Source: a virus
Virus record (IMG/VR): IMGVR_UViG_3300021067_000014
Location: 1 to 34,286 of that record
DNA: 34,286 nucleotides
Reading direction: 5' to 3' (one strand)
Shown: one piece after another, positions 8,223 through 20,542 of the stretch
Layout of the letters: every line of letters begins with the position of its first letter
Numbering within the stretch: position 1 is the first letter of the stretch
The notes under the pieces: model-generated
What the model was told of the DNA's origin: nothing
The model's database searches: none
What the model saw: only the letters and a program-made list of their open reading frames with translations
Program-made: the position numbers and the translations under genes

Positions 8223-9904
8223 TGGATCTAACTAAGCTTAGTGATGATGATTTAAAGGCTCTTCACGCGAATGATTACTCTCAGCTGAGCGATGAAGGAT
8301 TAAAGCATCTTTCAGGGGGTTCTTCCCCGGAACAGCCAGGGGTTCTATCTCAAATCGGAGATGCCGCGCTCAGTGGGCTTGGTAAAGTTGTAAATTTTGT
8401 GGATTCCTATACAGGGGCGCCGGTAAGAGCTGGAGTGGGAAAATTACAATCGGGTGGAACTCTCTCTGATGCCGCACAAGCTTATAAGAACCAGTTCGGT
8501 GAAGATGCGTCCCTTGCCCCCAGTGGGAAAGAGATAGCACAAAAAATAGGAGTGCCAGACAGCGCGTTATCCGGTCTAGTTCCAGGAGCCTTTAATGAAA
8601 CAGGAGAGGGTTGGAAACTTCAAAAAGGTGGAATTGCCGATATTACAAGCTCAGGAGTAGCTGGATTAGGAGTAGATTTAGCCACTGATCCGACAAGTTA
8701 CATCCCACTCGGAGCGGTAGCTAAAGGGATTGGAAAAATCACTGCAGCAGCCAAGCCTTCAGTAATCAAGGGGATGGCTAGAGCTGGTGAAGCCTTTACG
8801 GGAGCTCCAGCCCGTGAATTTGAAACCTACATGAAGCACATGCCTGAGGTGAATCAGAGTATCGCTAAGTACGGTGGCGATACGAGTGTGGCGGCGGACG
8901 AAGTGCGAAAACGCTTCATGGGTGACATTCAAAAAACTCGGCGCGGAGCTAACGAAGAGATAGAAAAAGCAATCATGGCTGCAGATCCCGATAAGCACTT
9001 CATTGAATTGGGACCAGTACTCGAAGCTATGGAAGTAGAGAAACTAAAGATTAATTCCACACTAAAACCAGAAGCTATTGCCGAAATAGATGAAATAATA
9101 GCGAAGGTGCGAAGTCTTTCGGATTCTAACCGGGTTGATATCAGAAACGGAATGGACCTTAAACAATGGCTGCAGGATATTGCCGAAGGTGAATACCGTA
9201 AGGACGGGCAAATATTTACACCTGGAAAAGAATTAGCTAGAGCCGCAAAAAGCGGTGCTTTTCATGCTAGAGCGGGACTCAATCAAATCTCTCCCGAAAT
9301 CGCGGCAGCTAATAAGAAACTCTCCCTACTAAGAACCATCGAAAAAAGAATCAATAAAAACGTAATCGGCGAGGGTCGACCGGAAGCAGCTCTTTTATCT
9401 GCCGGAGGGAGTAATTTAAGAAACAGACAAATGCTAGAGTCTTTAGGCGAAATGACCGGAACTAACATGGTCGAAGAAGCGGAAAAACTAGCCGCCATGC
9501 GCCGATTTGCGAAGCCTGAGATATTGCCAGTCGACACGACTGGAAAAACGGCAACCAGGCTGGCTGTTGCTTATGCTTTAGGTGGAAAACCAGCGATGGT
9601 TGCTACTTCTCCTATGGCCTGGAAATACGGTCTAAATGCAGGTCAAAAAATAGCAGAAGCCGCACCTATGGTAGGAAAAGCAATGCAGTCTCCATTAGCA
9701 AAACCTGTGCAGCTCGGGGCGATGGAAGCGGGTCGGCAGAAGTCATTAATGGATAGAGTTTCTCAGGCTCCAAACGGTCAAAAATTTTTAGGCGTATTGC
9801 AGTCAGCGGAACAAAAAGGGCCGGAGGCAGTTTCTACAGTGAACTTTATTCTTCAGCAAACAGACCCTGAGTATCAACGCATCATGGAAGAAACTGGACA
9901 GTAA
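8222..9904 (+). CDS. Large ejection / internal virion protein (P22 gp16-like position)
   Basis: A 560-residue protein starting at a TAATG overlap. Residues 1-30 hold a repeated L-S-D-D-x-L-K/E pattern (KLSDDDLKALHANDYSQLSD), a short motif often found at the start of phage internal proteins. Residues 35-200 have Gly/Ala-rich stretches (TDPTSYIPLGAVAKGIGK) resembling membrane-active segments. Residues 200-450 are charged helices. The last 100 residues are Ala/Met/Pro-rich. It is the largest of the ejection-type proteins and precedes the lysis genes. I see no transglycosylase (SLT) catalytic motif, so a peptidoglycan-cleaving role is not supported. Confidence 0.6.
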   Translation: MDLTKLSDDDLKALHANDYSQLSDEGLKHLSGGSSPEQPGVLSQIGDAALSGLGKVVNFVDSYTGAPVRAGVGKLQSGGTLSDAAQAYKNQFGEDASLAPSGKEIAQKIGVPDSALSGLVPGAFNETGEGWKLQKGGIADITSSGVAGLGVDLATDPTSYIPLGAVAKGIGKITAAAKPSVIKGMARAGEAFTGAPAREFETYMKHMPEVNQSIAKYGGDTSVAADEVRKRFMGDIQKTRRGANEEIEKAIMAADPDKHFIELGPVLEAMEVEKLKINSTLKPEAIAEIDEIIAKVRSLSDSNRVDIRNGMDLKQWLQDIAEGEYRKDGQIFTPGKELARAAKSGAFHARAGLNQISPEIAAANKKLSLLRTIEKRINKNVIGEGRPEAALLSAGGSNLRNRQMLESLGEMTGTNMVEEAEKLAAMRRFAKPEILPVDTTGKTATRLAVAYALGGKPAMVATSPMAWKYGLNAGQKIAEAAPMVGKAMQSPLAKPVQLGAMEAGRQKSLMDRVSQAPNGQKFLGVLQSAEQKGPEAVSTVNFILQQTDPEYQRIMEETGQ

Positions 9905-9905
9905 A

Positions 9906-10082
9906 ATGAAAAACGTGAACTCAATTATTGGAATGGTTATTTCAATACTGATTGCAGCGAATGCGTTTTTCATAGTGCGGTTAGTTGATAAGTTAGAAAA
10001 AGTGGAAGAATCGGCTTATCGAATAGCGCAGTCACTGGCAGTGTTAGAAGCCCGTTTTGAAAGCTTCACTAAAAAGCACTAA
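9906..10082 (+). CDS. Small one-TM membrane protein, holin- or i-spanin-like
   Basis: A 58-residue protein: residues 6-25 form a single hydrophobic transmembrane helix (IIGMVISILIAANAFFIVRL) and residues 26-58 a charged amphipathic helix with coiled-coil spacing. The ATG lies 1 base after the previous stop. It sits just before the M15 endolysin, the usual place for a holin or Rz-type spanin. With one TM and a short charged tail it could be a class III holin, a pinholin-type protein or a spanin subunit; the sequence does not decide. A second holin candidate lies at 27534-27842. Confidence 0.65.
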   Translation: MKNVNSIIGMVISILIAANAFFIVRLVDKLEKVEESAYRIAQSLAVLEARFESFTKKH

Positions 10083-10096
10083 GTCAAAAATAAGCC

Positions 10097-10122
10097 ATGA
10101 CTAGTCATTAATTTCTTATGCT
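10097..10122 (+). promoter_or_regulatory. 12-bp perfect palindrome and -10-like box before the endolysin gene
   Basis: ATGACTAGTCAT at 10097-10108 is a perfect palindrome, followed by TATGCT at 10117-10122, 13 bases before the endolysin ATG. No good -35 hexamer is seen at 16-18 bases, so a bound activator at the palindrome could replace it. The palindrome could equally be a repressor operator. Both functions are inferred. Confidence 0.4.
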
Positions 10123-10135
10123 ACCATTTCTTTAA

Positions 10136-10525
10136 ATGGTCATAAGAATCGCTAAAGGAATAAGCCAAGAGATTTCTAGGAACATCAATAGCAGTCAGTT
10201 TGACTGTAAGTGTGACTTCCCAGAATGTGACTCGACACTATACGACACCGACTTAGTTAGTTACTTGGACCATCTAGACGACCTCTTTGGGATGATTACG
10301 ATCACCTCAGGGTATCGTTGTAAAAAACATAATAATGCGGTTGGCGGAGAACCTGGAAGCTTCCACATGAAAGGACAAGCCGCTGACATAAAGACAGAAC
10401 TTGCGACGACAAAAGAACTGTATCACGCAATTGAGGGGCTGCTTGGAAAAAGCGGTGGATTGGGGCTTTACTCGACCTTCTGTCATTTGGATGTACGGGA
10501 AGGGTGTGCGAGGTGGGGAATTTAG
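10136..10525 (+). CDS. Endolysin, M15-type peptidase (Peptidase_M15_3-like)
   Basis: A 129-residue peptidase predicted to cut peptide cross-links in the host cell wall at lysis. The zinc-peptidase signature is clear: ITSGYRCKKHNNAVGG (56-71), SFHMKGQAADI with ligands His77 and Asp84, and CHLDVREG with ligand His117, ending ARWGI. The N-terminal domain has four Cys (24, 26, 31, 62) that may form an extra metal site or disulfides. There is no signal peptide, so it needs a holin for export. The ATG at 10136 has no ribosome binding site upstream and lies close behind a -10-like box, hinting at a very short or leaderless message. Confidence 0.9.
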   Translation: MVIRIAKGISQEISRNINSSQFDCKCDFPECDSTLYDTDLVSYLDHLDDLFGMITITSGYRCKKHNNAVGGEPGSFHMKGQAADIKTELATTKELYHAIEGLLGKSGGLGLYSTFCHLDVREGCARWGI

Positions 10526-10692
10526 TAACGCTATGCAGTGGGTGTAAGAAGCTTATTCACGCTAATCCTGTTGTCATAACAAGTCCAAAAGGTAAGCAGC
10601 GTTCTTTTCATCAAGAATGTATCGACATTAAAAATGTGGACGTGCAGACTAAGTCTGATTCACGTAGAATAAGTCGACCGCAGCCGCTTTAA
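10513..10692 (+). CDS. Small zinc-ribbon-like protein
   Basis: From the GTG at 10513 (chosen because GGGAAGGG lies 8 bases upstream at 10497-10504) the protein has 59 residues; an earlier GTG at 10504 would add three. It contains a C-x2-C pair (CSGCKKLIH) and a later H-x2-C pair (SFHQEC) about 20 residues on, a pattern that can bind one zinc ion, then a polar Arg/Ser tail. It overlaps the endolysin end by 13 bases, so the two are probably translated together. Function unknown; a small zinc-binding adaptor is the most that can be said. Confidence 0.6.
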   Translation: MGNLVTLCSGCKKLIHANPVVITSPKGKQRSFHQECIDIKNVDVQTKSDSRRISRPQPL

Positions 10693-10704
10693 GGGGGAAA
10701 ACAA

Positions 10705-11031
10705 ATGAAAGAACTAAAAAGTTTAGTTGGATTTGGGTTAGCTTGTGCTGAGTTAGTTGCAGACTTAGCCGATGGAGTGAGCTTCTCGTTAATATCTAAG
10801 GTGGTTCAGGTAGCTAAAGAAGCAAAGCCTGCGTTTAAGGGCGCAGAAGTTGCCTTTGAGCAGTATGTTGGAATGACCGATGAAGCGGCCCTTGAGATTG
10901 AGCAGTGGGTGGTGAGTGAATTTGATATCGATAATGAAAAAGTGGAACTCGCAATTGAATCCGCTTTAAAAGCCATTATCCAGCTTCGTGTAATCGTAGA
11001 ACTCTTAGTACCTAAGAAACAAATAGCTTAA
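10705..11031 (+). CDS. Small helical protein of unknown function
   Basis: A 108-residue protein with alternating hydrophobic and acidic helices (LVGFGLACAELVADLADGV at 7-25; IESALKAIIQLRVIVELLV at 84-102). The segments are amphipathic rather than clear transmembrane helices. It starts 7 bases after a GGGGG ribosome binding site (10693-10697) and overlaps the next gene by one base (TAATG). It belongs to the block between endolysin and papain-like protease whose other members carry signal peptides or hydrophobic segments; a lysis or envelope role is possible but not shown. Confidence 0.55.
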   Translation: MKELKSLVGFGLACAELVADLADGVSFSLISKVVQVAKEAKPAFKGAEVAFEQYVGMTDEAALEIEQWVVSEFDIDNEKVELAIESALKAIIQLRVIVELLVPKKQIA

Positions 11032-11711
11032 TGACATTACTAATTAGCCTCATTTTTAGCTTTTATGCCTACTCTTGTGAAAACACAGGAGAGCCGAATG
11101 CTTGTCATCATGGAGCACCGCCAGAGGTGTCTGACCATTCTAGGAGAGTAGCTAGGCGATTTGAAAGAGATATGGAAGACGGCCGTCTTCGAGAACGCAC
11201 AAATGGCGCACTAGATGCCATGATTCGTTTAGGGGCTCATAAGCTTCGAAAAGCGGGTCATAAGAAAGAAGCTAAAAAGCTTTTAGATGAATGGGATAAC
11301 CAATATCGGTTTCATCTACTTCGTCGGGACCTTGGAGACCACAAACCACTCTCTCAATGGTTAAAGAAAAAATATGAGGAACTAGAAGCCCTTTTAGGTC
11401 CTGAGGTGTGTCACGCGCTTCGTTTAGACGACATTAAGATTATTAATTTTGGGATCCCGGTGGTCTTCTCCTGCGTCGATGATGTGGATGAACTGGAATA
11501 CTCAAAGCACTTTGTGCCGCTAGCTGGAACCGTCATCTATTGGACCACGTTTTTTAGCTGCGTTGGGTTTACCTGGGGAACTGGGTTTTTGTACTGCTCG
11601 CCTTTAAGCTGGGGAGCTGAGTTTTTAACTGAAAAGTACATTGCACCACGCTTGAACGAGCCCATTTGGAAACTTTCCTGTCATCAAGAGGAACTCTCAT
11701 GTCGGCGATAA
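11031..11711 (+). CDS. Secreted Cys-rich protein with signal peptide
   Basis: A 226-residue protein with an N-terminal hydrophobic signal segment (MTLLISLIFSFYAYS) before CENTGEPNACHHG, so it is probably exported; the Cys at 16 follows a poor lipobox, and cleavage by signal peptidase I is as likely. Residues 35-130 are charged helices rich in Arg, Lys and Glu. Residues 150-200 are hydrophobic and aromatic with several Cys (VIYWTTFFSCVGFTWG), perhaps a membrane hairpin. The C-terminus has two more Cys. It overlaps its upstream neighbour by 1 base and the next gene by 13. No known family recognised. Confidence 0.6.
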   Translation: MTLLISLIFSFYAYSCENTGEPNACHHGAPPEVSDHSRRVARRFERDMEDGRLRERTNGALDAMIRLGAHKLRKAGHKKEAKKLLDEWDNQYRFHLLRRDLGDHKPLSQWLKKKYEELEALLGPEVCHALRLDDIKIINFGIPVVFSCVDDVDELEYSKHFVPLAGTVIYWTTFFSCVGFTWGTGFLYCSPLSWGAEFLTEKYIAPRLNEPIWKLSCHQEELSCRR

Positions 11712-12007
11712 TCAAGATCGTTTGGGCTGTCATTGGTCCTACAGTGGTTGAAATGGCGCTTAGCTTCGGACTTCCAAAGGCTATGGAATGGCTACTTAAA
11801 AAGGGCCTTCCAAAGTGGATTGTGGATGGCCTTGTAAAGATTATTAAAGAGGCGCTGGAGAAGATTTCAGAAGTGAAAGAGAGCTTGGAGCTCTCTCCTG
11901 AAGAAAAACGACAAAAGGTGAAGTTTTTAAAAAGAGAAGCCAAAGCCAAGGCTAAATATCACTGTTCGGGAGTTGCCTGTACTTCTGAAACTAAGGGGCT
12001 TGGGTGA
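11699..12007 (+). CDS. Small membrane-associated protein
   Basis: From the ATG at 11699 (AGAGGAAC ribosome binding site just upstream) the product has 102 residues; an earlier in-frame ATG at 11666 lies deep in the previous gene and lacks a site. The N-terminus (IIKIVWAVIGPTVVEMALSF) is hydrophobic and could span or enter the membrane; residues 25-55 form an amphipathic helix, and 60-90 a charged Lys/Glu coil. Two Cys lie near the C-terminus (HCSGVACTS). It sits between the exported Cys-rich protein and the papain-like lipoprotein, so a shared envelope role is likely. Specific function unknown. Confidence 0.55.
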   Translation: MSAIIKIVWAVIGPTVVEMALSFGLPKAMEWLLKKGLPKWIVDGLVKIIKEALEKISEVKESLELSPEEKRQKVKFLKREAKAKAKYHCSGVACTSETKGLG

Positions 12008-12010
12008 TTT

Positions 12011-13360
12011 ATGTTTAAATGGATTATCGCTTTTATCCTCATTATCGCGGGTTGTGAAAGACTCGTTACTAACAATGTAGAAGTAACTAAAGAAGTTCCC
12101 GTAAAAAAGCTTCAGGACTTCCCATGGGCTGAACAAGAGGTCATGGAGCATATCGCTCTTTGTGGAGTTGGGGTTGTAGAAGGCCAAGAGGGCCCTAACA
12201 AGTGCAGCTACCATATCAAGGTAGACGATCTCATGTATCAACACCCTTCCCTAAAAACGGGTCTTTTACATGATCCGGAATTTGCCTTTAAAGGGGCTAG
12301 TTTCTATGAGCCCGATGACATGAAAGAAGAGGATATTCCTGATTCTTTCGATTTAAGAGACCTCATGAAAAATGGAGTGCCTGATATCAGACAGCAGAAC
12401 TGTGGAGACTGCTGGGCCTGGGCTACTCATCATGGATTAGAGATTGTGAGAGCCGTTCACGATCAAAAAAATTTTGATCACAGTGTGCAGACCGTTCTTT
12501 CTTGCTCCAAACACGGAAGCTGTAACGGTGGGTATATGAGTGCCCCCGACTTCTTACTTAATCGCGGTCTTCCCTATGAGCCTGACTTCTCGTATCAGGG
12601 AAAGGATGCGAGATGTAAGTTTTCATCAGATGAATTAGCAAAAGGATGGGAAGGAAAGGTCATTTCCGCTCCCTATATCGGTAAAAGTAGCTGGCACTCT
12701 AGAGGGGCTCCCGAGAGAGAGGGAACTAAAGTAAAGGCCATGATGGAGGCGATGCTAAAGCTTAAGTCTCCTTTAGTCGTAACTGTGGCGGCCTATTCGT
12801 CCAGTGGTGGGGTGGTGGATAGCTGCTCTGCTATTAATAGCGGTGGAAATCACATGGTCGCTATTGTGGGTTGGGAGATGTGGAAAGGTAAAAGAGTCGC
12901 TCATGTGTGGAACTCCTGGGGTAAGTCGCACGGAGAAAATGGCGTTTCAAAAATTGTCTGGGAATGTGGAGACGGAAGACTGAATCGAGGTCTTGGAGTA
13001 GACGCCAGGGTCTATGAATATAAAGGGGTAAACCCGCCTGATCCCTGTGAGCTACCAGAAAACGTAATTGAGAAGCCAAAACACATGATGTTTTTGGGTA
13101 GTAGTGTGAAACTTGGAAGAGCTCCTAAGAAGGCTCAAACTTGTAAATGGATCCCGGCAGACGGAATAGATAATCCGAATAGCTGTGAGACCTATGCAAG
13201 TCCCAATAGATCGACTGAATATCATTTAGAAGCTTCCAATGCCTGTGGGAAAGTAAGCGGTATCTCTCAGGTGGATGTGTATGGACCCATGGGTAAGCTA
13301 GATGACTCTGTGCTGACCCCGTTTGGAATAATTAATCGCAATAAAAAGGAGAATAAATAA
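12011..13360 (+). CDS. Papain-family (C1A) cysteine protease, lipoprotein, with C-terminal Ig/PKD-like domain
   Basis: A 449-residue protease with all papain landmarks: Gln128 of the oxyanion hole and Cys134 in QQNCGDCWAW, the CNGGYMSAPDFLLNRGLPYE segment (171-190), His281 in GGNHMVAIVGW, and Asn301 in VWNSWG. The N-terminus (FILIIAGC, Cys15) is a lipobox, so the mature protein should be lipid-anchored outside the inner membrane. Residues 20-125 resemble a propeptide. Residues about 350-430 resemble a PKD/Ig-like beta domain (TCKWIPADGIDN, then TEYHLEASNACG). Papain-like enzymes are rare in phages. It may process envelope or virion proteins, act in lysis, or alter the surface of a lysogen; the sequence does not decide. 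Confidence 0.88.
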   Translation: MFKWIIAFILIIAGCERLVTNNVEVTKEVPVKKLQDFPWAEQEVMEHIALCGVGVVEGQEGPNKCSYHIKVDDLMYQHPSLKTGLLHDPEFAFKGASFYEPDDMKEEDIPDSFDLRDLMKNGVPDIRQQNCGDCWAWATHHGLEIVRAVHDQKNFDHSVQTVLSCSKHGSCNGGYMSAPDFLLNRGLPYEPDFSYQGKDARCKFSSDELAKGWEGKVISAPYIGKSSWHSRGAPEREGTKVKAMMEAMLKLKSPLVVTVAAYSSSGGVVDSCSAINSGGNHMVAIVGWEMWKGKRVAHVWNSWGKSHGENGVSKIVWECGDGRLNRGLGVDARVYEYKGVNPPDPCELPENVIEKPKHMMFLGSSVKLGRAPKKAQTCKWIPADGIDNPNSCETYASPNRSTEYHLEASNACGKVSGISQVDVYGPMGKLDDSVLTPFGIINRNKKENK

Positions 13361-13361
13361 A

Positions 13362-14024
13362 ATGGCTGGCATCGCTTCTTACTTTCAACTCGTTAATAGT
13401 ATCGACCCAACATGGGTTACGTTTAAGGACGATTTTTTTACTACTTTAGATGAAACCAATGTTTGGAACGTGGTAAAGGATGCTGGAGCGACCGCTGCTA
13501 TCGGTGCTGATGCAGCTAATGGAACTCTTGTCATTTCAAGTGCCGCTACTACGGACAATGACGGTGGACTCGTTCAAAGTATTCAGGAATATATCGTTGG
13601 TAGCGCTAATAAGGCTATTTATCTTGAAACTAAAGTGAAACTTAGCGACGCTACTCAGACTGATTTTTATTTTGGTTTATCGGCCCAGGCTGAAACCGAT
13701 CCAGAAAATATTCTATCGGCTGCTTCCAGAATTGGGTTTGAAAAGCTCGATGGAACCGCGGAACTTTCCGCTGTTTGCACAGCCTCCAGCGTCACCACGA
13801 AGTCCAGCTGTCAAAGAAGCTTAAGCGATGCAACCTATGCAGTGCTCAGTATCTATTTCGATGGCACTACAGCTTTCTTCTACGTCAATGGAAACCAGGT
13901 TCAGAGCATTGCAACGAATGTTCCTGCCGATGAAATGGCAGTGGCGATGTTCCACCTAAGCGGAAACAACAGCGGCACAAAAACCAGCACTTGGGACTAT
14001 GTGTTCTACGCTGGTCAACGATAA
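13362..14024 (+). CDS. Virion-surface protein with concanavalin/LamG-like beta-sandwich
   Basis: A 220-residue protein of alternating beta-strands. The opening DDFFTTLDETNVWNVVKDAG, the NGTLVISSAATTDNDGG strand pair, the middle YLETKVKLSD-TDFYFGLS, and AVLSIYFDGTTAFFYVNGNQV are typical of jelly-roll (concanavalin-like) domains in phage decoration and fibre proteins. The ATG follows AAAAAGGAG by about 12 bases. It is near the end of the late operon with another small virion-type protein after it, where receptor-binding or capsid-decorating proteins are common. Carbohydrate binding is possible but no binding residues can be assigned. Confidence 0.65.
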   Translation: MAGIASYFQLVNSIDPTWVTFKDDFFTTLDETNVWNVVKDAGATAAIGADAANGTLVISSAATTDNDGGLVQSIQEYIVGSANKAIYLETKVKLSDATQTDFYFGLSAQAETDPENILSAASRIGFEKLDGTAELSAVCTASSVTTKSSCQRSLSDATYAVLSIYFDGTTAFFYVNGNQVQSIATNVPADEMAVAMFHLSGNNSGTKTSTWDYVFYAGQR

Positions 14025-14035
14025 ACGGAGGACTC

Positions 14036-14509
14036 ATGCAGTCAGTAGCCGGTATTTTTACGACTGTGGTCGAGCAGCCCACGATCTCTATAGCCGCTTA
14101 TTCTTCTGGGGACCAGTTGGGAGGGCTACAAACACTCTCCCAAGCAGCCCTTGGGGATGGTTTGTACTGTACGCTTAAGGATTTAGTCGTTGTGGACTTA
14201 GCAAAGCAAAAATCAGCATTGGAAGTTTTGTTTTTCAATAAGTCACCAACACTGATTTCAGGTGACAATGAACCTCTGAATATCAGTGATGCTGATGTGG
14301 CAGAGTATTTCGTTGGAAACGTGTCTGTAGCCGCAGCGGATTACAAAGACTTAAGCGCAAGTAGTGTTGCCACGGTGGTTGCTGATCTCAGTATGAACGC
14401 ACTGGGTGGACAAGGTACTCTTTACGCAGTTGCCATGTCTGCTGGAACGCCGACATACACTTCTTCGGGAAGTTTGTACTTTAAGTTCACTTTCTCAAAA
14501 CAATATTAG
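14036..14509 (+). CDS. Small virion-type beta protein
   Basis: A 157-residue protein from the ATG at 14036, chosen for the CGGAGG site at 14025-14030. It has an alternating strand pattern (LKDLVVVDLAKQKSALEVLFFN at 45-66, then TLYAVAMSAGTPTYTSSGSLYFKF near the C-terminus). This layout is familiar from small phage proteins thought to decorate heads or fibres. It is the last gene of the late operon and ends 30 bases before a strong terminator. The pattern loosely resembles the protein at 33743-34240, but I cannot show homology by eye. Confidence 0.6.
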   Translation: MQSVAGIFTTVVEQPTISIAAYSSGDQLGGLQTLSQAALGDGLYCTLKDLVVVDLAKQKSALEVLFFNKSPTLISGDNEPLNISDADVAEYFVGNVSVAAADYKDLSASSVATVVADLSMNALGGQGTLYAVAMSAGTPTYTSSGSLYFKFTFSKQY

Positions 14510-14539
14510 GTTCCGATCGGATCCCAATCAGAGTACTTA

Positions 14540-14578
14540 GGGCGGGAAGTCTGTGGACTTTCTGCCCTTTGTATTTTT
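14540..14578 (+). terminator. Rho-independent terminator of the late operon
   Basis: A 12-bp stem (GGGCGGGAAGTC at 14540-14551 with GACTTTCTGCCC at 14556-14567, two G-U pairs) with a TGTG loop, followed by TTTGTATTTTT. It lies 30 bases after the last late gene. The minus-strand gene stops at 14577, so the hairpin could also serve transcription from the other side, though the T-run fits the plus direction best. Confidence 0.9.
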
Positions 14579-14807
14579 AATGGTAAGGAGAAAGGTGTCG
14601 CGCATCCTTAAAGCACTTTGCATAGGGATGCTGGAGCTTAGCTGCCTTCCAAAGCTCATTCACTGCTTCATCTAAAGTCTCGTAAGTTCCATCCCACTCC
14701 CACCCTACATCTTCGTCCCCTAGGGCGACTGATACCCCATAAGATGAGTCGAAAATGATTTCGAAATTGATGTCAGAGGCGATGAGTTTATTGAGTTTCG
14801 TGGACAT
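14577..14807 (-). CDS. Small protein of unknown function
   Basis: A 76-residue protein from the ATG at 14807, preceded by a GGGGAATAGGA ribosome binding region; a TTG at 14825 is a weaker alternative. It contains a beta-strand region (FEIIFDSSYGVSVALG) and an aromatic acidic stretch (DVGWEWDGTYETLDEAVNELW) followed by a helix. It resembles small single-domain phage accessory proteins but I cannot name the family. Its promoter region carries an 8-bp inverted repeat (14828-14857). It stands alone at the downstream end of the minus-strand cluster, separated from it by about 570 bases. Confidence 0.6.
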   Translation of the reverse strand: MSTKLNKLIASDINFEIIFDSSYGVSVALGDEDVGWEWDGTYETLDEAVNELWKAAKLQHPYAKCFKDARHLSPYH

Positions 14808-14827
14808 GTGAATCCTATTCCCCAACT

Positions 14828-14857
14828 ACTGAAGTTTTTTTCAAAATATACTTCAGT
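14828..14857. promoter_or_regulatory. Operator-like inverted repeat with minus-strand promoter
   Basis: ACTGAAGT (14828-14835) and ACTTCAGT (14850-14857) are perfect 8-bp arms separated by 14 A/T-rich bases. On the minus strand, TTGGAA, 16 bases and TATTTT overlap this repeat and point at the gene ending at 14577. A protein binding here could control that promoter and also the plus-strand direction. Function inferred from symmetry and position. Confidence 0.45.
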
Positions 14858-14914
14858 GACTTGGTTCCAAACTTAAATTATGGGGCCGCAATCAATAAAT
14901 AAAAAGGTCATAAC

Positions 14915-15028
14915 ATGTGGGATTTTTTGGTTAAGTTATGGTTTGACGCGGATCGGCGCGTAATGACGGATGAGCCAAATTCAGAAATGATTTTTATGCA
15001 ACGGAGTCCTTTGAAGACGTGCATCTAG
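14915..15028 (+). CDS. Tiny ORF, 37 residues, doubtful
   Basis: An ATG-started ORF with an aromatic N-terminus (MWDFLVKLWFDADRR) and a polar remainder. The upstream AAAAAGG is a weak ribosome binding site. It lies in an otherwise gene-poor stretch, in the same direction as the better-supported small ORF at 15113. It could be a leader peptide for that transcript or chance. Confidence 0.25.
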   Translation: MWDFLVKLWFDADRRVMTDEPNSEMIFMQRSPLKTCI

Positions 15029-20160: not shown

Positions 20161-20334
20161 GCGTTTAGGCTTTTTCCCAAATACTTGCTTATGCACCTTG
20201 CGGGCTAGCTCGCCAAAGGTATGTTCAACGAATTTAATGTGCCTCAATAAAGCGGCTTTCTTGCCCTTTAAATGAGGTACGAACTGTAGGCTATATTCTA
20301 TTTGTTTCTCGAGTTTAGTCTTTTTATTTGCCAA
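20158..20334 (-). CDS. Small very basic protein
   Basis: A 58-residue ORF starting at a TTG (20334) that overlaps the end of the upstream lipoprotein gene by 11 bases. Composition is strongly basic (Lys, Arg, His), with a helical middle (KAALLRHIKFVEHTFGELARKVHKQ). No ATG is available and no clear ribosome binding site, so it may rely on coupled translation. Its stop codon is supplied by copy 2 of the 28-bp repeat, which means the repeat boundary sets the C-terminus. Function unknown. Confidence 0.45.
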   Translation of the reverse strand: MANKKTKLEKQIEYSLQFVPHLKGKKAALLRHIKFVEHTFGELARKVHKQVFGKKPKR

Positions 20335-20542
20335 GCGGTTTCTTCACATCTGGATCTACATATGCCGGAATAAAGCACAGCGGATCTGCAGTCTTGCCCC
20401 CGGCAACCGAGTTCGCCTTGCAATAAAGTAATCTAGTATCCGTTGTCCAAACCCATGCTTCTTGTTTGTCGGACAGCATCACTGCTGTTTGAGTGCACGA
20501 AACTAATAAAGACACTGATGCTGCCAAAAGAACGTTTCTCAT
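20324..20542 (-). CDS. Small lipoprotein
   Basis: A 72-residue protein with a short signal (MRNVLLAASVSLLVSC) ending in a lipobox Cys16, so it should be lipid-anchored in the envelope. The mature part has two further Cys (about 41 and 56), perhaps a disulfide, and a Pro-rich C-terminus. An AAGGGGAG site precedes the ATG. It could be an o-spanin (Rz1-like) by size and anchor, but it is far from the lysis genes and not strongly Pro-rich; a superinfection-exclusion lipoprotein is the other common possibility. Confidence 0.7.
   Translation of the reverse strand: MRNVLLAASVSLLVSCTQTAVMLSDKQEAWVWTTDTRLLYCKANSVAGGKTADPLCFIPAYVDPDVKKPLGK

Follow-up and report, generated by a model that had tools for sequence, protein, structure and literature searches.

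Why would a tailed phage carry a papain-like protease, apparently destined for export, among its late genes? This question is raised by positions 12011 to 13360 of the window, by which we mean the whole 34,286-bp stretch analyzed here (IMG/VR record IMGVR_UViG_3300021067_000014). Genes for terminase, portal, and major head protein mark the window as a tailed phage, with PHROG matches to the large terminase (phrog_2, E 5.9e-25), portal (phrog_156, E 5.3e-5), and major head protein (phrog_14242, E 9e-12). Also present are a small terminase gene and one for an integrase-like protein (phrog_1, E 5.9e-9). The features on which our analysis draws are the following.

9906..10082, + strand: 58-aa candidate holin-like or i-spanin-like protein; a single hydrophobic segment at the N terminus, charged tail
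10136..10525, + strand: M15 peptidase endolysin (PF08291, E 9.9e-16; phrog_894 "endolysin", E 1e-24)
10705..11031, + strand: 108-aa operon member, role unassigned; its stop overlaps the start of the partner by one base
11031..11711, + strand: the "partner," an exported, all-helical protein of 226 aa from an uncharacterized phage family found beside C1 genes in other phages
11699..12007, + strand: 102-aa protein with a hydrophobic N-terminal half; overlaps the end of the partner
12011..13360 (including the stop codon), + strand: exported C1 (papain-family) peptidase P0001, 449 aa (PF00112, papain fold)
12011..12055, + strand: signal peptide with lipobox of P0001, residues 1-15 (MFKWIIAFILIIAGC), a hydrophobic stretch followed by IAGC15
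12335..12958, + strand: catalytic C1 domain of P0001, residues 109-316 (Pfam match range)
12395-12397, 12410..12412, 12851-12853, and 12911-12913, + strand: codons of Gln129, the catalytic Cys134, His281, and Asn301, respectively (motif positions)
13043..13357, + strand: C-terminal Ig-like domain of P0001, residues 345-449 (beta strands in the model, profile match)
13362..14024, + strand: late protein with a weak ConA-like lectin match (PF13385, E 0.0016, under the cut-off)
14036..14509, + strand: final late gene ahead of the terminator, function unassigned
14539..14568, + strand: 13-pair intrinsic-terminator-like hairpin followed by TTGTATTTTT; the late operon probably ends here

The P0001 open reading frame starts with ATG and is free of internal stops. 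The Peptidase_C1 profile (PF00112) matched residues 109-316 with 96.5 bits (E 3.2e-27; curated cut-off 20.7), and a phmmer search of the PDB returned cathepsins and plant papains at E of about 4e-12. A preliminary description of the locus had called the catalytic Gln, Cys, His, and Asn intact; they are indeed Q129, C134 (in QNCGDCW), H281 (GNHMV), and N301 (WNSWG), and the four columns are invariant across 17 aligned, divergent phage C1 proteins. An AlphaFold2 model built on 15 aligned phage proteins (mean pLDDT 71.6) matched papain-fold chains with Z of 23-25 over about 205-242 residues, and Der f 1 with Z 25.4 and an rmsd of 2.2 over 214 residues. With a score above the cut-off, the four active-site residues, and the papain fold, all shared with papain and the cathepsins, P0001 is by its sequence and model a C1A (papain-family) peptidase with predicted activity. 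It differs from those enzymes in its bacterial-type lipobox, its C-terminal Ig-like domain, and its location in a phage late operon.

The two additional elements had also been proposed in the preliminary description, and both hold up. I-A-G-C15 follows a hydrophobic signal, as the pattern rule for bacterial lipoproteins requires, and thus lipidation is predicted. Under strict criteria applied to six frames and any start codon, P0001 is the only lipobox protein of the window; a looser rule adds two, neither within the late operon. One is a 72-aa minus-strand lipoprotein outside that operon (20324-20542), which may be an o-spanin or a conversion lipoprotein, and the other is a doubtful 75-aa frame. 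The Ig-like domain is predicted to form beta strands, and a profile of eight phage C1 C-terminal domains matched the GhpA grappling hook (E 6e-6) and titin Ig (E 3.8e-4) in the PDB; in Pfam, nothing matched this domain of P0001.

The papain gene lies downstream of the M15 endolysin and upstream of the terminator, within a run of + strand genes from 9906 to 14509 that abut or almost abut, several stops and starts overlapping or lying a few bases apart. A scan for sigma-70-type promoters found no + strand promoter-like site at 9800-15000. The late position beside an endolysin and an exported protein, as initially described, therefore stands. As to the other members of this operon, the 9906-10082 protein gave weak PHROG matches and has a homologue upstream of the endolysin in the related phage G001 (E 1e-10), the 10705-11031 protein was unmatched in Pfam and PHROG, and PADLOC returned no match for four window proteins. 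The papain gene itself contains a 9-pair terminator-like hairpin (12588-12613, +), one kind of site of which the region holds 9 against 4.3 expected.

A search of IMG/VR with the terminase of the window recovered G001 (60% identity) and eight more records. Among cultured phages, the closest terminase is that of a Silvanigrella aquatica phage (25.6% identity, E 2e-29). In bacterial genomes, the terminase alignment turned up one clear relative, on a 6.4-kb contig assigned to a Methylococcaceae bin, along with four weak relatives. G001 and the window have capsid, portal, tail, and endolysin genes in common. As in the window, the exported C1 gene of G001 falls between the endolysin and an early gene, but it runs against the direction of the late genes. 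The G001 enzyme is 33% identical to P0001 over 214 residues, and its gene adjoins one for a lipoprotein that weakly matched a phage metallopeptidase (E 4.4e-5). PF00112 is present in only 1 of 10 terminase-related records, several of which are fragments, and the gene thus appears dispensable in the lineage of the window. The preliminary description would have been undermined had C1 peptidases turned out to be a regular feature of these phages, serving a known role. This is not what we see, and a search of the open-licence literature likewise found no paper naming a role for such a phage enzyme.

How common are such enzymes in phages? The rarity claimed at the outset was confirmed: tblastn with P0001 found none in the 50,697 records of INPHARED, and two other phage C1 enzymes found 3 and 4 unannotated gut-phage records there. 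In IMG/VR, a close-relative scan with P0001 alone, which relied on exact 8-residue patterns and was too strict, returned nothing. A search with an alignment including the G001 enzyme uncovered 16 contigs, the very set that came back from a rescan with 17 proteins; two of these contigs encode full-length relatives of P0001 (49% and 44% identity). A canonical active-site DNA pattern, which is blind to noncanonical enzymes including that of the window, occurred in 53 of about 2.9 million IMG/VR contigs. Twelve of the 53 were already in the 16-contig set, 5 had no ORF, and L071, L108, L116, L104, and L090 were dropped for an absent or weak match, an uncertain start, or truncation. The kept set comprised 48 phage C1 proteins including that of the window, or 38 contigs after removal of 10 near-identical copies; L120 was also removed for the tree and the near-neighbor scan (37 contigs including the window).

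By a simple hydropathy rule, 46 of the 48 proteins have a signal-like N-terminal segment, in some cases from an internal Met, and the other 2 are cut at the 5' end. The large-terminase family was found in 25 of the 37 C1 records, so most are clearly tailed phages. Collectively, C1 enzymes in phages are already known as such, and exported ones are rare but recurrent. Two individual proteins are of separate note. L025 (7911-10895) encodes a 994-aa exported phage protein that combines C1 peptidase, Ig-like, GDSL lipase-like, and GH5 cellulase-like domains, and L044 (7772-8545, -) encodes a C1 peptidase that lacks an evident signal peptide; its phage has an M15-like gene and the partner as well.

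Of the bacterial genomes sampled, 34 of 149 from Acidobacteriota and 8 of 398 from Pseudomonadota encode C1 peptidases. P0001 itself matched none of the 398 Pseudomonadota genomes at E 1e-6, in a search run without a positive control, and its single plasmid match was a Deinococcus C1 peptidase. We then built a tree from the 37 phage rows and 28 of 38 bacterial rows, drawn from Acidobacteriota and Pseudomonadota only; the excluded rows were those below 60 bits plus L145, L153, L123, and L124. The tree placed 33 of the 37 phage rows in one phage-only group (support 100/97), with L032, L034, L068, and L115 outside it; the window groups with L035 and L036 (100/99) and next with L037 (99/91). Short, cytoplasmic-looking bacterial C1 proteins fall far from the phage-only group. 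Bacterial L146, L152, and L156, short proteins that we take to be of the xylellain type, have no evident signal segment and stand apart from the phage group. The phylogeny that had been proposed for tracing a donor lineage thus yielded no donor: among the phages and the two bacterial phyla sampled, the nearest relatives of P0001 are other phages. Since the phage rows were recruited by patterns derived from phage proteins, and Bdellovibrionota, Myxococcota, and Bacteroidota lay outside the bacterial sample, a bacterial origin inside the phage group may still apply.

The general kind of enzyme has precedents. A 2023 survey (PMC10380794) reports C1A peptidases of the short xylellain type as acquisitions of Myoviridae and Siphoviridae, and C1A enzymes in tailed phages are in this sense already published. 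In contrast to those short proteins, P0001 has 449 aa, a signal segment, and an Ig-like domain, and it lies apart from the short bacterial rows of our tree; it does not group with these presumed xylellain-type sequences. Xanthomonas jumbo phage XacN1 has a C1 family peptidase, ORF382, listed among its potential lytic enzymes (PMC5852040). It resembles P0001 in being a phage C1 peptidase, a likeness drawn from its description, and differs in its jumbo-phage setting; the portion of that paper available to us mentions no export signal or partner link.

Clustering of 659 neighbor ORFs from the 38 contigs revealed three recurrent adjacent families: the partner (8 contigs), an Amidase_2 endolysin (7 contigs), and an exported protein with a metallopeptidase-like motif (5 contigs, 53-88 nt downstream of the C1 gene). 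The amidase gene lies 11-45 nt upstream of the C1 gene in L024, L026, L030, and L069. Members of the third family carry HEIGH (L024, 6337-7158) or HQIGH (L026, 4714-5520; L028, 9127-9705), and judging from these motifs the family may be a metallopeptidase that has lost its activity. The 1.6 kb around the C1 genes of the 37 contigs contain 244 ORFs of at least 60 aa, and from the 193 of at least 80 aa among them, 137 near neighbors were picked by eye; the picks are mostly of at least 105 aa, omit some long ORFs including terminases, and include two corrected window starts. Among these 137, Amidase_2 was the commonest Pfam family (6), followed by M15_3 (3, tied with others), and endolysin was the commonest PHROG category (6). 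The C1 gene has an M15-type endolysin no more than 1.6 kb away in the window, L029, L070, L096, and L097; L032 has a GH108 and L033 a weak M15_4 match. In G001, L023, L027, L029, and L033, some or all of the near neighbors of the C1 gene are encoded on the other strand. Genes for thioredoxin-like proteins are found at about 1 kb or less from the C1 gene in L033 (9430-9903), L109 (11539-12045), and L037 (6321-7037), with apparent export signals in L033 and L037; they perhaps serve disulfides or the active-site Cys.

The partner merits closer description. In an alignment of ten members of its family, Cys, His, Asp, Glu, and Pro positions are conserved, and its AlphaFold2 model is all-helical (mean pLDDT 78.7, about half of the residues above 90). 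It matched nothing in Pfam or PHROG, and its fold had no PDB match at E <= 0.001 among the 52 matches listed at E <= 10 and one match in BFVD, an uncharacterized phage protein. The partner profile found none in the 398 Pseudomonadota genomes at E 1e-5, in a search run without a control. In 6 of the 8 contigs in which it is near a C1 gene, the two are on the same strand and at most 300 nt apart; the partner precedes the C1 gene in the window, L029, and L031 and follows it in L075, L097, and L117. The probability of such proximity by chance is 2.6e-9 in a naive calculation, or 3e-6 for 4 of 6 lineages.

The survey from the partner side covered 17 of 23 loci, 16 of which gave an ORF. An adjacent exported protease was found at 2 of these 16 and at none of the other 14, and 11 of the 16 represent another conserved setting, near packaging genes. 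Since most loci have no adjacent protease, we conclude that the partner is an independent late gene, with an exported protease alongside it at some loci but not at all. In L159, an exported C1 gene lies 81 nt downstream of the partner. In L039 (6595-7539; the contig is the same as L162), an exported trypsin (PF00089, E 4.5e-19) begins 3-4 nt after the partner homologue. L160 has no C1 gene; there, the partner is directly followed by a homologue of the window's 11699-12007 protein (38.6% identity, E 8e-21), together with an M15-like endolysin. The joint module of three neighbors suggested earlier is therefore retained in part: the partner recurs, the 11699-12007 protein is linked to the partner in that one contig, and the 10705-11031 protein showed no link. 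Two roles considered for the partner were set aside, namely a dedicated protease inhibitor, given that it also occurs beside a trypsin and mostly beside no protease at all, and a colicin-like pore former, which was suggested by a hydrophobic helical region near the C terminus and found no support in the fold.

What, then, might P0001 do? We postulate that it is a protease anchored in the envelope and produced alongside the lysis proteins, where it would clear envelope or surface proteins at lysis, and we give this reading a probability of roughly 0.45. The active-site residues, the papain fold, the lipobox, the place in the operon, and a neighborhood that recurs in other phages are established, and from them we infer the rest of the role. 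P0001 would be exported by Sec and lipidated at Cys15 by signal peptidase II, so that its catalytic and Ig-like domains would sit, lipid-held, in the periplasm or on the cell surface; the Ig-like domain might also anchor it by binding a surface polymer. Once holin and endolysin have opened the inner membrane and wall, P0001 would cut envelope or surface proteins, the candidate substrates being tethers between outer membrane and peptidoglycan, S-layer, and matrix proteins, and progeny would be helped out and away. The partner and the 11699-12007 protein would be accessory envelope proteins of the same lysis block. A Gram-negative envelope is an assumption of this model.

Several observations argue for this lysis role: the tight one-strand operon shared with the endolysin, with no internal + promoter-like site and a terminator at its end; the lipobox, together with signal-like starts throughout almost all phage C1 proteins; the predominance of endolysin-type families among near neighbors, with an amidase gene abutting the C1 gene in four phages; the recurrence of the partner beside C1 genes and once beside an exported trypsin; and L160, in which the partner and the 11699-12007 homologue are next to an M15-like endolysin. 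Other observations argue against it: the five opposite-strand C1 genes are better explained as accessory genes under separate expression than as lysis genes, most partner loci are without an adjacent protease, and the C1 gene is found in a single terminase-related record out of ten.

The comparison with spanins is relevant here. According to a spanin survey (PMC6139136), spanins are exported lysis-cassette lipoproteins, of which the o-spanins have a lipobox like that of P0001, but they are small fusion-type proteins without enzyme domains. P0001 has the lipobox, but its 449 aa, enzyme domain, and polar C terminus set it apart from o- and u-spanins. The same source recognized no spanin in 91 of 677 phages and asked for an alternative route (PMC6139136). 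The window may have an unrecognized spanin of its own, for which the i-spanin-like 9906-10082 protein and the minus-strand 20324-20542 lipoprotein are candidates, and this also counts against the lysis role of P0001.

The strand of the C1 genes in G001, L023, L027, and L029 could instead point to a moron-type surface protease, which would act independently of lysis and trim host surface proteins for superinfection exclusion or lysogenic conversion. The integrase-like gene of the window, the patchy presence of C1 genes among its relatives, and the exported or lipid-anchored nature of the C1 proteins predicted from sequence are in line with this idea. However, the window gene lies inside the late operon that runs from endolysin to terminator, with no + strand promoter-like site nearby, and amidase genes abut C1 genes in four other phages; we therefore regard a moron as rather unlikely.

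A different use at the end of infection is suggested by the insect viruses. The V-CATH protease of baculoviruses helps liquefy the host, and a chitinase gene neighbors its own. By analogy, P0001 would be freed at burst as a dispersal enzyme that digests extracellular matrix, biofilm, or proteins of neighboring cells. Like V-CATH, P0001 would be an exported viral papain that aids exit, whereas V-CATH belongs to an insect virus and is of eukaryotic cathepsin origin, as stated in the 2023 survey (PMC10380794), and the window gene has no adjacent chitinase. The L025 fusion of C1 with GDSL-lipase and GH5-like domains and the resemblance of the Ig-like domain to the GhpA grappling hook domain are consistent with dispersal, as is XacN1, in which the C1 peptidase adjoins a chitinase and a lipase and biofilm breaking is proposed by the authors for the enzymes of its virions (PMC5852040). 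On the other hand, the lipobox would retain the enzyme on membrane fragments, and the recurrent neighbor families listed above contain no glycosidase except endolysins. We consider post-lysis dispersal unlikely.

That the gene was acquired from a host by chance and brings the phage no benefit is very unlikely and already disfavored. C1 peptidases are indeed available in Acidobacteriota and Pseudomonadota genomes, and C1A transfer to Caudoviricetes is reported in the 2023 survey (PMC10380794), but the phage-only group, the active site kept in 17 divergent proteins, and the recurring neighbors speak against a chance passenger. Most improbable of all is a virion-associated protease acting during entry, also raised in the preliminary description, because the lipobox and signal segment predict export to the envelope, away from assembly, and because the virion enzymes named in the available portion of the XacN1 paper are a chitinase, a lipase, and one M23 peptidase and not the C1 peptidase (PMC5852040), even though phages do carry enzymes in virions and the downstream genes at 13362 and 14036 could, on weak grounds, encode virion decoration proteins. 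Of the original proposal, the exported lipoprotein papain, its intact catalytic residues, and its late position are supported, and a surface protease acting at lysis is the reading that we favor.

Exported lipobox C1 enzymes in lysis neighborhoods with the partner were not found in the open-licence literature. Generalizing from them is doubtful at present: many uncultured phages might lyse Gram-negative hosts with a proteolytic step, in which a papain that is exported and in many cases lipid-anchored (one contig may use a trypsin instead) would be produced alongside an endolysin and the partner family and replace or assist spanins by cutting protein links of the outer membrane or surface layer. 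How phages without recognizable spanins open the outer envelope is stated to be an open question in section 15 of the spanin survey (PMC6139136), and the phage-only exported papains beside endolysins and the partner family are a concrete candidate for that step. If this is true, ending an infection with an exported cathepsin would be a viral strategy that extends beyond insect viruses, and the exported phage papain may be an overlooked tool for cell exit, one that recurs in phages known from environmental DNA.
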